From a virus: a stretch of DNA of 21,730 bases. The notes under the pieces were generated by a model. It did not search any database. It worked only from the letters and a program-made list of their open reading frames with translations, and was not told the origin of the DNA. The stretch covers positions 1 through 21,730 of the IMG/VR virus record IMGVR_UViG_3300023180_000463. One strand, 5' to 3'. Position numbers and translations under genes: made by a program. Shown here in pieces: positions 3,234-7,243 of the stretch (positions are counted from its first letter, which is position 1; each line of letters begins with the position of its first letter).

Positions 3234-3383
3234 TCATACAAAAAAGACCTCCCCTTTTGGGGAAGCCTTGTACCGCTTCTTGAACTGTTTCAGGCGTGCC
3301 TTCGCTTGCCTGAGTGCTTGTGGTTTTAGTTTTCTCTTCTGGTCTTTCCTTGAGTGGTGTTGCCAGTTGGGAACATTAGTCAC
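3234..3383 (-). CDS. Small basic protein, GTG start, 49 aa, overlapping an intrinsic terminator
   Basis: A short frame opens at GTG (complement of 3381-3383) just before the stop of the 105-residue gene, overlapping it by 8 bases. GGAGG lies 4 bases upstream of the GTG, a strong Shine-Dalgarno match. The 49-residue product is very basic, rich in Lys, Arg and Gln: it begins (M)TNVPNWQHHSRKD, has a probable amphipathic helix in the region QALRQAKARLKQF, and ends SPKGEVFFV. I do not recognise a family; charge and length suggest nucleic-acid or ribosome binding, which is only inference. Its last eight or so codons encode the terminator at 3240-3265, and the gene finishes inside the T-tract. An ATG five bases further in (TAATG with the upstream stop) opens only 16 codons in another frame. 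Confidence 0.6.
   Translation of the reverse strand: MTNVPNWQHHSRKDQKRKLKPQALRQAKARLKQFKKRYKASPKGEVFFV
3240..3265 (-). terminator. Intrinsic terminator of the gp55-gp47-gp46 operon
   Basis: Minus-strand CTTCCCC, loop AAAA, GGGGAGG, then TCTTTTTT: a seven-base-pair stem (one G-T wobble) and a T-tract, the standard Rho-independent form. It sits within the last codons of the 49-residue gene and 30 bases before the CobT-like start. Confidence 0.85.
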
Positions 3384-3693
3384 GTTGCCTCCAGTCGTCT
3401 GTATCTTCTCTTCTGAACCAGTCTACTATCTCATCAGCACTTTGGAAACCCGTTCTGTGATTTGAAGGATCAGGATCTCCTAAGTCCATTTGGTTCATAA
3501 AGTCATCCAGGCTACCTTCTTGCATTTCTGGATTCATTGCTTGCCTTCTTGCCTTTCTTAGCATGGCACCAGCAGATCTATTTGCCTTAGCAAGTTTCTC
3601 TGCCCAGATCATATCCTCTAACTTTACTTCTTCCCCATTTACAATACGCTGACAGATAAACTCCATTCTCAAGCGATATTGTGTAGATAACAT
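3376..3693 (-). CDS. Conserved-looking hypothetical protein, 105 aa
   Basis: A soluble, highly charged protein of 105 residues that I cannot assign to a named family. The N-terminal part (about 1-55) looks helical and basic, with MEFICQRIVNGEEVKLEDM and a stretch rich in Ala, Arg and Lys (LRKARRQAM). The C-terminal half is acidic, rich in Asp, and ends DDWRQRD. No membrane segment, signal peptide or catalytic motif is visible. It lies 23 bases downstream of gp46 in the same direction, and its 3' end overlaps the GTG start of the 49-residue gene, so it is likely co-transcribed with gp55, gp47 and gp46. An octamer TCTAAATA overlaps the gp46 stop 20 bases upstream and could add late expression. 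Position in the recombination operon hints at a DNA-metabolism accessory role, without direct support. Confidence 0.7.
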   Translation of the reverse strand: MLSTQYRLRMEFICQRIVNGEEVKLEDMIWAEKLAKANRSAGAMLRKARRQAMNPEMQEGSLDDFMNQMDLGDPDPSNHRTGFQSADEIVDWFRREDTDDWRQRD

Positions 3694-3713: not shown

Positions 3714-3721
3714 TATTTAGA
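3714..3721 (-). promoter_or_regulatory. Weak late-promoter-like octamer before the 105-aa gene
   Basis: Minus-strand TCTAAATA differs from the T4 late element TATAAATA at one base and overlaps the TAA stop of gp46, 20 bases before the next start codon. Short A+T-rich octamers arise by chance in this genome, so it is a candidate only. Confidence 0.25.
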
Positions 3722-5426
3722 TCATTCTTGAGAAACCTTTGACTTTCTCAAACTTGATCACATTGCCAAACTTATCTTCCATACCACTCTTGTGAGAGAT
3801 GATAAAGATGTTGGCATCTGTAATCACATACCTGATGATTTTGAGAAACTCATCTGTCCCAAAACCATCCAGAGATGAATCAAATACTTCATCCATAATC
3901 AGAAGGTTGGTATTGACTGAGTTCTTATGTCTGGCAACTTCCCTCCAAGTGAAGAGAAGTGCCAGGTCAATACGCATTTTTTCTCCTTCTGAGAAGGATG
4001 AGTACGAGAAGTCCTCGTGGATTGGTGATTGAATTGTCTCATTGAACTCCTCATCAAGCGTGAAGTTGATGTAGAAGTCCATCATCTGCAAATACTTATT
4101 GACCTGCTGATTGATAAGGGGCAGATACTTCTTGATGATTTTGGTTTTTACTCCACCATCTTTGAGAAGATTGTAAGTGAAGTCATAGTAGGAAATATTA
4201 TCCCTTTTATCAGCAAGGTCAGTGTAAGTTTCTTTGAGATTGGTTTTGAATTCTTCTAACTTTACATTCTCAGAATTTCTGTTTGCAAGGTTTTCGGCAA
4301 TTGTTTGAATTTCAAGTTCAAGATTTCTGATTTGTTTTCTACACCCAGAAATCTTAATGTTGTTTTGAGAAATGCCATTCGTTAGTTTAGAGATCTCCTT
4401 AGATAGAGCATTGAATTGACGCTCTCGCTCTTCCTCCTCTTTAATTGCTCCCTCCAGTTCTTTATAACCAGATTGCAACTCCTTTGCTTTATTTTGAGCG
4501 TCTTCAATTCTATTTATTCTAAAGGTCTCATCAATGTCCTGAGTGCAGGTGGGGCAAACCCTATTCTCATTGAAGAACTTGTGCTCTTTAGTAATAGTAG
4601 ATACTTTCTGGGAAATCTTTCCTTTTAGATTCCCTAACTTACGAAGTTTCTCTGTTGCACCAACATACTCATCCAACTTCACCTGAAGAGAATCAAGATC
4701 AGTTTGAATCTGATCACTCTCTTCTATGTAATTGCCAATTTCAGAATCCAGATTGGCAATCTTTTCTTTGTTGGCATTGATGTTGGCATTGCCACTGTTC
4801 TCAATTTCATCAATGAACTTCTTCTGCATCTCTACTTTGTCCTTGAGAGATTGTTTCTTCAATTCCAAAGTTCTGGTTTCTTCCTTGCAAACTCTGATCT
4901 TATCCTTGATAAGAGAGTTCATTGCAGAGAAGATTCTGATATCAAGAAGATCTTCAATGACTTCACGACGATTAGAGGAAGTCAATTGCATAAAGGGAAC
5001 AAAAGTGCTGCTACCCAGAATCACAATCTGAGTAAATGACTTGTAGTTCATCTTCAGAACATTCTGCTCCAACCACTTCTGCTGATCCACTGCAGAAGCA
5101 CTTTGATCCAATGCTTTACCATCTCTATAGATCTCAAAGATGGCAGGTTTGATTCCCCTTACAACCTTCCACTCAACATTGTTTACAGTAAACTCAATCT
5201 CAACTCTACAATCTTTCTCATTGATTGAGTTGACCAGTTGTGGTTTATTAATTTTCCTGAACGCCTTCCCATACAGAGAAAAGGTAAGAGCATCAAGGAT
5301 AGTGCTCTTACCTGCTCCATTTGATCCAATGATCAATGTGGTTCCATTTTCTGTCAAGTTGACTTTGGTTTCGTGCTGTCCTGTTGAGAGAAAATTTTTC
5401 CAACTAATAGTTTTAAACAGTATCAT
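3717..5426 (-). CDS. 46: gp46 recombination endonuclease subunit (Rad50/SbcC-like ATPase)
   Basis: A 569-residue SMC/Rad50-type ATPase, close to T4 gp46 (about 560). Walker A GSNGAGKS lies at 34-41. Long coiled-coil arms (about 175-285 and 300-400) flank a zinc hook CPTC (291-294). The C-terminal ABC signature is FSEGEKMR, followed by Walker B LLIMDE with a D-loop-like SSLD. With gp47 it forms the Mre11-Rad50-like complex that resects double-strand ends for recombination-dependent replication and, in T4, takes part in host DNA degradation. Its start overlaps the end of the 92-residue DUF3110-like gene by 14 bases, so translation is probably coupled. No sign of truncation. Confidence 0.96.
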   Translation of the reverse strand: MILFKTISWKNFLSTGQHETKVNLTENGTTLIIGSNGAGKSTILDALTFSLYGKAFRKINKPQLVNSINEKDCRVEIEFTVNNVEWKVVRGIKPAIFEIYRDGKALDQSASAVDQQKWLEQNVLKMNYKSFTQIVILGSSTFVPFMQLTSSNRREVIEDLLDIRIFSAMNSLIKDKIRVCKEETRTLELKKQSLKDKVEMQKKFIDEIENSGNANINANKEKIANLDSEIGNYIEESDQIQTDLDSLQVKLDEYVGATEKLRKLGNLKGKISQKVSTITKEHKFFNENRVCPTCTQDIDETFRINRIEDAQNKAKELQSGYKELEGAIKEEEERERQFNALSKEISKLTNGISQNNIKISGCRKQIRNLELEIQTIAENLANRNSENVKLEEFKTNLKETYTDLADKRDNISYYDFTYNLLKDGGVKTKIIKKYLPLINQQVNKYLQMMDFYINFTLDEEFNETIQSPIHEDFSYSSFSEGEKMRIDLALLFTWREVARHKNSVNTNLLIMDEVFDSSLDGFGTDEFLKIIRYVITDANIFIISHKSGMEDKFGNVIKFEKVKGFSRMI

Positions 5427-5691
5427 ATGAAATATCAGAGGGAGGAATCACAATGTCATTGGATGTTATTATTGTATAACGGTGTCCATGGATTTCGCAA
5501 GTTTTTATCATTAAATCGTCATCAATCTCCAGAACTTGCATCTCTGGAAATCCATTCTCTTCTTCCAACATCAGTCCATAACGAATGGCATCATCCTCCT
5601 CCTCAAAGATGTAGAGGACTTGATCCCCATCATCATCTGTTACTGAAAATGCACCTTCTTTTTCTTTTCCTGCAACTGTTAGAAGAAACAT
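5413..5691 (-). CDS. DUF3110-like protein (related to cyanobacterial proteins), 92 aa
   Basis: A 92-residue acidic protein with no membrane segment. The run EGAFSV followed by LYIFEEEDDAIRYGLMLEEE, then GFPEMQVLEID and a C-terminal IVIPP, follows the pattern I know from the cyanobacterial and plastid DUF3110 family (EGI...VVLMFE-EDDA-RYA-LLEAQDFP, a later segment with a conserved Cys, then a C-terminal PP). The function of that family is unknown. The gene is wedged between gp47 (TAATG, one-base overlap) and gp46 (14-base overlap), so it is made with the nuclease. The best reading is a host-derived gene kept in the phage operon; T4 has no such gene family here as far as I know. Family assignment is from memory of the motif. 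Confidence 0.7.
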   Translation of the reverse strand: MFLLTVAGKEKEGAFSVTDDDGDQVLYIFEEEDDAIRYGLMLEEENGFPEMQVLEIDDDLMIKTCEIHGHRYTIITSNDIVIPPSDISYDTV

Positions 5692-6737
5692 TAAACTAAC
5701 TCACAAGCCTCTTGGTAGATATCTTTCAGAAGTTTTTGAACAATGGATTTGTCCAGATGTGTTTCTGATTCCTCAATATATCTATCAAGGATAGAAAGAG
5801 TATCTTCTGATTCATATGCCTCTGTTTCATCACCATACCAACCAGTGAACTCATGGTTCTCTACAACTTTCATCTCTGCTACACCAGCAGAATAAAGTTT
5901 GTCAATGAACTTTTCAAACTTGACTGTATCACTCTTCTTACGAACAATGACCTTTACAATCTTGTTTTCATATTCAGAAGCATTGAACAGTTGGTGATCA
6001 TTGTCCTCATAATAGATGTTATGGAACAACTTGTAGGGATTGTTGACTGGTGTGTGCTCTAAAGTTTCAGTATCAAAGATATGAAAACCTCTGGTATCAT
6101 TCACATCAGTCCAGAACATCTCATAAGGATTGCCTAAGTAAAATACTGTTCCATTGTCCGATCGAGTGTGGTAGTGACCAGAGAAGACCTTGGAGAACTT
6201 CTCAAATAGTTTGCTCTCAAGACCGTGGTCCATGACGATTTGACGATTAACTCTAAATCCTGTGAGCTCAAGGTGCCCCATCGCACACTTGCAAGATGTA
6301 TTTTGAATAGATTTGATAGTACTCTCTTCGTTTTCTGCATTGATCCAAGGAATGAATAAGATATTAAGATTATCAACTTTGACTTCTGTTGGTGAAGAAT
6401 AAACCTTTACATTTGAATACTCCCTCAACAGGAGATCAACTGCATTGATAGAGTTGGTGTTTTTGTAATAAGCATCATGGTTACCAACCATCAGATGCAT
6501 ATCAATTCCTCTTTCTTTCAGAGGATCAAAAACAACTCTCTGTGCCCAAGTCAGTGCTTTGAATTCAATACCTTTACGACTATCAAAGGCATCACCCATA
6601 TGAATAACTGTCTTGATACCCTGTTCATCTAAGGTAGGGAAGAAGACATTCTTGTAAAACTGTTCAAAATAATCATGGAACAAGGTGGAAGATTTCCTTG
6701 CTCCATAATGTGTATCAGTGATGATTGCTACTTTCAT
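5691..6737 (-). CDS. 47: gp47 recombination endonuclease subunit (Mre11/SbcD-like)
   Basis: A calcineurin-like metallophosphoesterase of 348 residues (T4 gp47 is about 340). The five phosphoesterase motifs are present: DTH (8-10), GDAFD (48-52), GNHD (85-88), GHLE (154-157) and GHYH (187-190), giving the di-metal site D8, H10, D49, N86, H155, H188 and H190. It is the nuclease partner of gp46. I start it at the ATG ending at 6737, which overlaps the gp55 stop (TGATG); a TTG one codon earlier is possible but less likely because Mre11 proteins begin with Met-Lys-hydrophobic runs such as MKVAIITDTH. Its stop overlaps the DUF3110-like start by one base. Confidence 0.96.
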   Translation of the reverse strand: MKVAIITDTHYGARKSSTLFHDYFEQFYKNVFFPTLDEQGIKTVIHMGDAFDSRKGIEFKALTWAQRVVFDPLKERGIDMHLMVGNHDAYYKNTNSINAVDLLLREYSNVKVYSSPTEVKVDNLNILFIPWINAENEESTIKSIQNTSCKCAMGHLELTGFRVNRQIVMDHGLESKLFEKFSKVFSGHYHTRSDNGTVFYLGNPYEMFWTDVNDTRGFHIFDTETLEHTPVNNPYKLFHNIYYEDNDHQLFNASEYENKIVKVIVRKKSDTVKFEKFIDKLYSAGVAEMKVVENHEFTGWYGDETEAYESEDTLSILDRYIEESETHLDKSIVQKLLKDIYQEACELV

Positions 6738-7243
6738 CAATAGCGAAGTTTAGAGTGGACATTATCTTTGATGCTATTGTAGTCAGAGTAGTTGCCACTG
6801 TCAAGGTCATTAGCATCAAATACTTCATCAAAGTTAGTTTTCTCCAGGATCTTGTTCTTGATCTCTAACTGCTTCTTCTCTTGGGAGATCCTTCTCAGGA
6901 AAGCATAGTAGATGATTTGGGTGAAGTATGCAAATGGATTCTTGGACTTCTCAGGATTAAAATTATGAATATATCTCACACAGTTCTCAATACCATCACA
7001 GATCATATCATCCTTGAACATGTAGTTCACAAAGTTTGGTTTGTATGATAAGTGATTAGCAATCTTCAGAAAGCACTCTCCAATGTAAGAGGGAATCTGA
7101 GGTTTGGGTTTGTCATTTGCTTCTGCCCGCTTGACCTCAGCAAAATAGTTCTCAAGAGCTTCAAGAAACTCTTTGTTATTCACGTAGTGTTCAGAGTTTC
7201 TTCCTCTTTTCATCTGATTAAATCTTGGAGACAGCACTGACAT
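6737..7243 (-). CDS. 55: gp55 RNA polymerase sigma factor for late transcription
   Basis: A 168-residue protein matching T4 gp55 (about 185 residues). It has the N-terminal YVNNKEFLEAL (20-30) and a sigma region 2-like core containing DDMICDGIENCVRYIHNF and KNPFAYFTQIIYYAFLRRI, followed by a basic segment. In T4, gp55 replaces sigma-70 on the host polymerase and reads the minimal promoter TATAAATA; matching octamers precede several structural genes here. The C-terminus ends HSKLRY and lacks an obvious LDFLYE-like sliding-clamp motif of the T4 protein. A sigma-70 promoter sits 21 bases upstream of its ATG, so gp55 can be made by the unmodified host polymerase. First gene of the gp55-gp47-DUF3110-gp46 operon. 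Confidence 0.93.
   Translation of the reverse strand: MSVLSPRFNQMKRGRNSEHYVNNKEFLEALENYFAEVKRAEANDKPKPQIPSYIGECFLKIANHLSYKPNFVNYMFKDDMICDGIENCVRYIHNFNPEKSKNPFAYFTQIIYYAFLRRISQEKKQLEIKNKILEKTNFDEVFDANDLDSGNYSDYNSIKDNVHSKLRY

Follow-up and report, generated by a model that had tools for sequence, protein, structure and literature searches.

A DUF3110 gene set between gp47 and gp46 in T4-like cyanophages encodes a protein with a predicted Tic22-repeat fold and a possible chaperone or adaptor role

Introduction

What might a small protein of a cyanobacterial family do for a phage that encodes it in overlap with both subunits of its recombination nuclease? This question is raised by the DUF3110 gene, a hypothetical gene present in essentially all T4-like cyanophages, which are very abundant marine viruses, and whose relative in the hosts is maintained by many cyanobacteria, usually in single copy. 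A sequence-only reading of the stretch of DNA analysed here (21.7 kb in full, hereafter the window) had placed a DUF3110-like gene inside a gp47-gp46 operon and suggested that its product modifies or inhibits the nuclease or connects it to a host target. The one paper found to mention DUF3110 gives it no function. Here, we add a predicted fold, the host context and a comparison of the genes occupying the same slot in other phages, which lead to a testable chaperone/adaptor hypothesis.

Organization of the gp55-gp47-DUF3110-gp46 run

Judged by its gene content, the window is a piece of a T4-like cyanophage genome: genes for a gp55-like late sigma factor, gp47, gp46, uvsW, uvsY, tail tube, capsid, portal, sheath and terminase are recognisable, and the closest database records are Synechococcus and Prochlorococcus phages. 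A tightly packed run of four genes on the minus strand begins with the gp55-like late sigma factor (6737..7243) and continues with gp47, the SbcD/Mre11-like subunit (5691..6740; phrog_100, SbcD-like, in PHROG), the DUF3110 gene (5413..5691; 92 aa, ATG start) and gp46, the SbcC/Rad50-like subunit (3717..5426; 569 aa; phrog_77, SbcC-like). The position of the DUF3110 gene and both of its overlaps proved to be as first claimed. Indeed, the gp47 stop codon (5693-5691) has base 5691 in common with the DUF3110 ATG, and the DUF3110 stop (5415-5413) falls within codons 4-5 of the gp46 reading frame, which starts at 5426, resulting in an overlap of 14 bases (5413..5426, minus strand). The mechanical start of the gp47 frame is a TTG at 6740, and its likely true start is the next codon, an ATG at 6737, which shares one base with the gp55 stop codon. 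Given this one-base overlap, gp55, gp47, DUF3110 and gp46 may constitute one translationally coupled run.

Just downstream of gp46, and in the same direction, lies the gene for a phrog_507 protein (3376..3693, minus strand). Between it and a peptidase gene, we observed a short basic reading frame (window 3243-3380, minus strand) with an apparent GTG start (VTNVPNWQHHSRKDQKRKLKPQALRQA...), which is closed by a terminator-like hairpin followed by a T run (3244..3269, minus strand; a pattern match only), located downstream of the gene run.

The window gene is a member of the DUF3110 family

The window protein matches DUF3110 (PF11360) in Pfam-A with an E-value of 7.7e-15 (55.3 bits for a cut-off of 20.2), over positions 5-83 of 84, and phrog_470, to which PHROG assigns no function, with an E-value of 9.7e-30. 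The family had previously been named from the block FEEEDDAIRYGLMLEEE, corresponding to residues 29-45, and the HMM search, well over the gathering cut-off, confirms this identity; the window gene is almost certainly a DUF3110 member. A core motif, F..(E/D)DDA.RY...LE, is common to the phage copy and the cyanobacterial members, and six of its residues (F29, D33, D34, A35, R37 and L42) are invariant in 48 phage and host sequences. Searches of the window protein gave no NCBIfam match and no Pfam match to a catalytic or DNA-binding family, and no solved structures related to it by sequence were found.

Conservation of the slot in cyanophages and its occupants in other T4-like phages

Three scans of viral contigs, IMG/VR loci among them, provided about 225 phage DUF3110 loci. 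Where the flank was long enough, gp47 lies at most 30 nt upstream of DUF3110 in 207 of 211 loci and gp46 at most 30 nt downstream in 183 of 193. By profile matching, DUF3110 occupies the slot in all 13 cyanophage isolates inspected. These isolates cover many Kyanoviridae genera and include nine picked at regular intervals along the gp47 ranking; some of their divergent copies are annotated only as 'hypothetical'. With three family members as query, 385-401 database records were matched, all of them cyanophages or marine virus fragments. The DUF3110 gene is a regular component of T4-like cyanophage genomes; its proposed locking between gp47 and gp46 is conserved across these phages, and the absence from this position in most relatives that would speak against it was not observed.

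In the commonest arrangement, the final base of the gp47 stop codon is also the first of DUF3110 (one-base overlap; 178/227 loci). At the other end, DUF3110 and gp46 share 14 bases in 91 of the measurable IMG/VR loci and mostly 4, 23, 29, 17 or 32 bases in the rest, and a universal 14-base overlap was rejected: this length is a lineage feature, true of part of the family only. Since the DUF3110 stop is usually supplied by codons 4-5 of gp46 (TTT AAA or TTT GAA), how far the two genes overlap follows in part from the gp46 coding sequence. SD-like runs of at least 4 bases at -16 to -4 are absent from 176 and present in 52 of 228 copies. This scarcity fits a DUF3110 start that would depend on gp47 termination (termination-reinitiation), although SD motifs are not a constant feature of cyanobacterial genes. 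The suggestion that the product is made in a fixed ratio with the nuclease was drawn from the overlaps only and is not supported as stated.

Some loci depart from this layout. In two cyanophage loci (L364:3483-3968, also L365), a 2OG-Fe(II) oxygenase-like gene lies between gp47 and DUF3110; its match, to PF13640, is weak and below the cut-off, and the gene is different from the oxygenase of phage HTVC008M described below. In two other loci (L020:3610-4260 and L041:4120-4790), an insert of ~650 bases between DUF3110 and the gp46 body severs the ATG-proximal gp46 codons, after which comes an ORF resembling, by eye, GIY-YIG homing endonucleases, and gp46 resumes after the insert at a GTG-like start (VIIFETVSWRNFLSTGQ). 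The loci with inserts gave no Rfam intron match.

Outside the cyanophages, the slot is filled differently. In phage T4, it holds 46.2 and 46.1, which are also overlapping genes; in Stenotrophomonas phage Yut3, it is empty and gp47 and gp46 overlap by four bases; in Pelagibacter phage HTVC008M, a member of Kyanoviridae that infects SAR11, it carries a 2OG-Fe(II) oxygenase gene, again with overlaps. The slot regions of these three phages gave no DUF3110 profile match, whereas the gene accompanies gp46/gp47 in 13/13 cyanophages. Since T4, Yut3 and HTVC008M have gp46/gp47 without DUF3110, the complex does not need this protein in general, which is what speaks most against an obligatory role in the nuclease. 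The slot can take different genes, and DUF3110 is the one specific to phages of cyanobacteria.

A gene in such a position could be a vertically inherited passenger, whose function is unrelated to its neighbours and which is frozen by overlaps with two essential genes. These overlaps make deletion disruptive, the length of the one with gp46 is largely set by gp46 codons 4-5, and relatives have other small genes at this place, all of which would suit a passenger. However, dN/dS is ~0.07 between the window gene and its two nearest non-identical relatives (dN 0.03, dS about 0.45-0.48), with a median of 0.10 across 743 family pairs, indicating purifying selection and thus a protein kept for its function. 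Furthermore, the direct gp47/gp46 overlap of Yut3 implies that loss is feasible, yet none of the cyanophages examined has lost DUF3110. We consider the passenger explanation quite improbable.

DUF3110 is predicted to fold as one Tic22 repeat

The structural model of the 92-aa phage protein (pLDDT 84.7) comprises one repeat of the Tic22 type, with the order strand-strand-strand-helix-strand-helix-strand (encoded at 5413..5691) and a first predicted strand at residues 2-6. For fold comparison, solved structures were proposed by Foldseek and then ranked by their VIA-align Z. The best four PDB chains for the phage model were all Tic22, namely those of Plasmodium (Z 9.1), Chlamydomonas (7.8 and 7.6) and Anabaena (7.0), followed by TTHA0547 (6.6) and then 4.4. 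A host-only model gave Tic22 at Z 9.9, 8.8, 8.4 and 7.7 and TTHA0547 at 8.6, then a drop to 4.3. The Tic22 superpositions of these predicted models have an rmsd of 2.0-2.9 over 74-76 residues, and Foldseek scores Tic22 at E-values of 0.12-0.16, which alone fall short of significance. The phage and host models cover different halves of the Tic22 of Anabaena (residues 165-246 and 44-140), which would follow from DUF3110 corresponding to one repeat of a two-repeat fold. In profile-profile comparison, DUF3110 aligned with the C-terminal half of Tic22 with a P-value of 4.9e-4 over 66 columns, the best of 38 unrelated control families reaching 0.18. When 48 DUF3110 sequences were searched at E-values up to 10, Pfam Tic22 (PF04278) did not appear among the 25 of 28 families listed, which suggests a shared fold and probable distant kinship rather than membership.

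Collectively, these comparisons of models make a Tic22-repeat fold of DUF3110 very probable. Earlier hints exist in two database records, S-SCSM1, which names its copy 'Tic22-like', and S-CREM1, with 'import protein'; what is new here is that the predicted models of both phage and host DUF3110 match Tic22, in each case over a single one of the two repeats. Proteins of the Tic22 family act as holdases (PMC12895209), and the Anabaena Tic22 structure has hydrophobic pockets that were likened to ClpS and BamB (PMC3652856). Against a chaperone role of a single repeat, the groove of Tic22 may need both. An anti-CRISPR role via AcrIC9 was also considered and rejected, the corresponding Z of 4.3-4.4 being too weak.

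Context and kinship of the host copies

Of the 244 Cyanobacteriota genomes sampled, 113 have DUF3110, almost always in single copy, and among 14 control genomes only Synechococcus elongatus gave a match, in agreement with the cyanobacterial character first attributed to the family; many of the absences could reflect possibly non-oxygenic genomes in the phylum sample. The host gene precedes a MurQ-like SIS-domain gene in 66 of the 70 loci of one set, and in picocyanobacterial-type loci it lies directly after HSP70 (dnaK) and DnaJ genes on the same strand (13/16). In two host genomes, DUF3110 is a domain of large TPR and CHAT protease-domain proteins (L191:1294-5355, minus strand, and L192:4748-9490, plus strand), one of them with an N-terminal Clp_N; these could possibly be chaperone- or adaptor-gated CHAT proteases. 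None of these surroundings, whether murQ-like, dnaK-dnaJ or fusions, involves a nuclease. For another host fusion (L201), a J-domain N-terminus guessed from sequence had no Pfam support and was discarded. A further cyanobacterial protein (L194:3921-4850, plus strand) has the DUF3110 domain twice in tandem and may in this respect parallel the two-repeat Tic22.

Host copies extend further, through a disordered linker, to a conserved helix at the C-terminus with the sequence ELDxIRRxLEGLL (109-121 in the host model, the only one to show it); linker and helix are both missing from the phage copies, all 82-95 aa long. Since this helix is outside the Pfam domain, its absence leaves DUF3110 membership intact. 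In a 54-row tree with no outgroup, a branch with 100/100 support separates the host copies from those of the phages, and the host copies nearest to the phage side are not the marine ones; a recent capture from a marine host was rejected on these grounds. One ancient transfer fits this tree, whose signal comes from only 90 columns, and a host-to-phage direction would be simplest because the host family is broad. The cyanobacterial origin proposed earlier is likely, but it is not a recent one. Two contigs with phage-type DUF3110 (L085 and L086) were binned in archaeal MAGs (Euryarchaeota and Woesearchaeota), probably by binning contamination.

The host context brings up another explanation, in which phage DUF3110 would mimic or compete with its host counterpart, taking over the partner of the latter, perhaps DnaK/DnaJ or a Clp system, and, for lack of the C-terminal helix, redirecting or blocking the pathway, while the gp47-gp46 slot would be used only for well-timed expression. 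A partner in host proteostasis is favoured by the occurrence of DUF3110 only in phages of cyanobacteria, by the gp46/gp47 operons that do without it, including that of HTVC008M, a kyanovirus of a non-cyanobacterium, and by the host gene being beside dnaK-dnaJ and fused to Clp_N/CHAT. The lack of linker and helix in the short phage copies and the accommodation of unrelated genes by the slot elsewhere would also be consistent with a mimic. On the other hand, the place beside gp46/gp47 is far more stable than a mere expression slot would require, and the tree puts the phage copies on a side of their own rather than closest to the present marine hosts. We regard such interference with host proteostasis as possible, though somewhat unlikely.

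Discussion

The Tic22 match, the dnaK-dnaJ neighbourhood and the Clp_N/TPR/CHAT fusions support a chaperone reading, and we lean slightly towards a DUF3110 that is protein-binding and chaperone-like rather than catalytic. Its client could be the gp46/gp47 nuclease, a tentative assignment favoured by proximity, constant position and a modest partial correlation with gp47. Indeed, the partial distance correlation of DUF3110 is 0.35 with gp47, 0.21 with gp55 and 0.17 with gp46, while the known partners gp46 and gp47 reach 0.56; co-variation therefore favours gp47 modestly, and the value for gp46 is no higher than that for gp55. DUF3110 was not seen fused to either nuclease subunit.

The same co-variation with gp47, together with the conserved overlap with both subunits, could also suit a nuclease regulator, as the sequence-only reading suggested, which would inhibit, activate or retarget the complex, for instance to shield phage DNA or to steer gp46/gp47 towards that of the host. 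However, the protein has no match to catalytic or DNA-binding families, gp46/gp47 manage without it in other T4-like phages, and none of the tests made here points to inhibition or modification, so regulation appears improbable.

Our preferred, still tentative, explanation is that phage DUF3110 is a dedicated holdase or adaptor for gp46/gp47, co-translated with them and specific to cyanobacterial hosts. Ribosomes terminating on gp47 would initiate on DUF3110 and, in turn, on gp46, and the three proteins would be made side by side. The DUF3110 product, a small and probably non-enzymatic protein-binding protein with a predicted single-repeat Tic22 chaperone fold, would bind nascent or partly assembled gp47 and gp46 in the cyanobacterial cytoplasm, and would either help the Mre11/Rad50-type complex to form or bridge it to a host factor. 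An evolutionary scenario can be built on this, unlikely in its entirety, in which the cytoplasmic single-repeat form of the Tic22 fold passed from the host proteostasis toolkit to cyanophages, lost its C-terminal helix and became part of the gp47-gp46 operon; co-translated with the nuclease subunits, it would there serve as their assembly chaperone or adaptor, specific to this type of host.

The predicted Tic22-repeat fold and the dnaK-dnaJ neighbourhood provide a first concrete, testable idea for the phage and host proteins alike. Should phage DUF3110 indeed act on gp46/gp47, a recombination nuclease would have a helper protein that is encoded in its own operon and restricted to one host type; to our knowledge, such an accessory factor has not been described for any Mre11/Rad50 or SbcCD system.

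Comparison with known systems

The gene itself is already catalogued as the hypothetical cluster T4-GC 142 (phrog_470), an uncharacterised core cyanophage gene, and the slot gene is labelled T4-GC 142 in the records of the annotated relatives S-SM2, Syn1 and S-MbCM100. Main-text passages of Sullivan et al. 2010 (PMC3037559) give 25 cyanophage core genes, including 16 hypotheticals, and do not discuss T4-GC 142. The T4 genes 46.1 (DUF5487) and 46.2 (Y03C) resemble the DUF3110 gene in being small, overlapping and located in the gp47-gp46 slot, but sequence comparison places them in other Pfam families with no DUF3110 profile match, and homology to them was rejected. Cyanobacterial DUF3110 proteins (PF11360) share with the phage copy the Pfam match, the predicted fold, the core motif and a C-terminal PP, whereas they are longer, with the disordered linker and the conserved C-terminal helix, and are not encoded beside nuclease genes. 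Finally, Tic22 (PF04278), the chaperone of plastid import and of the cyanobacterial outer membrane, has two repeats and an N-terminal targeting sequence and acts in the intermembrane space or periplasm, while phage DUF3110 has one repeat and no such targeting sequence; what the two have in common is the predicted fold of one repeat and a remote profile similarity to the C-terminal half of Tic22.
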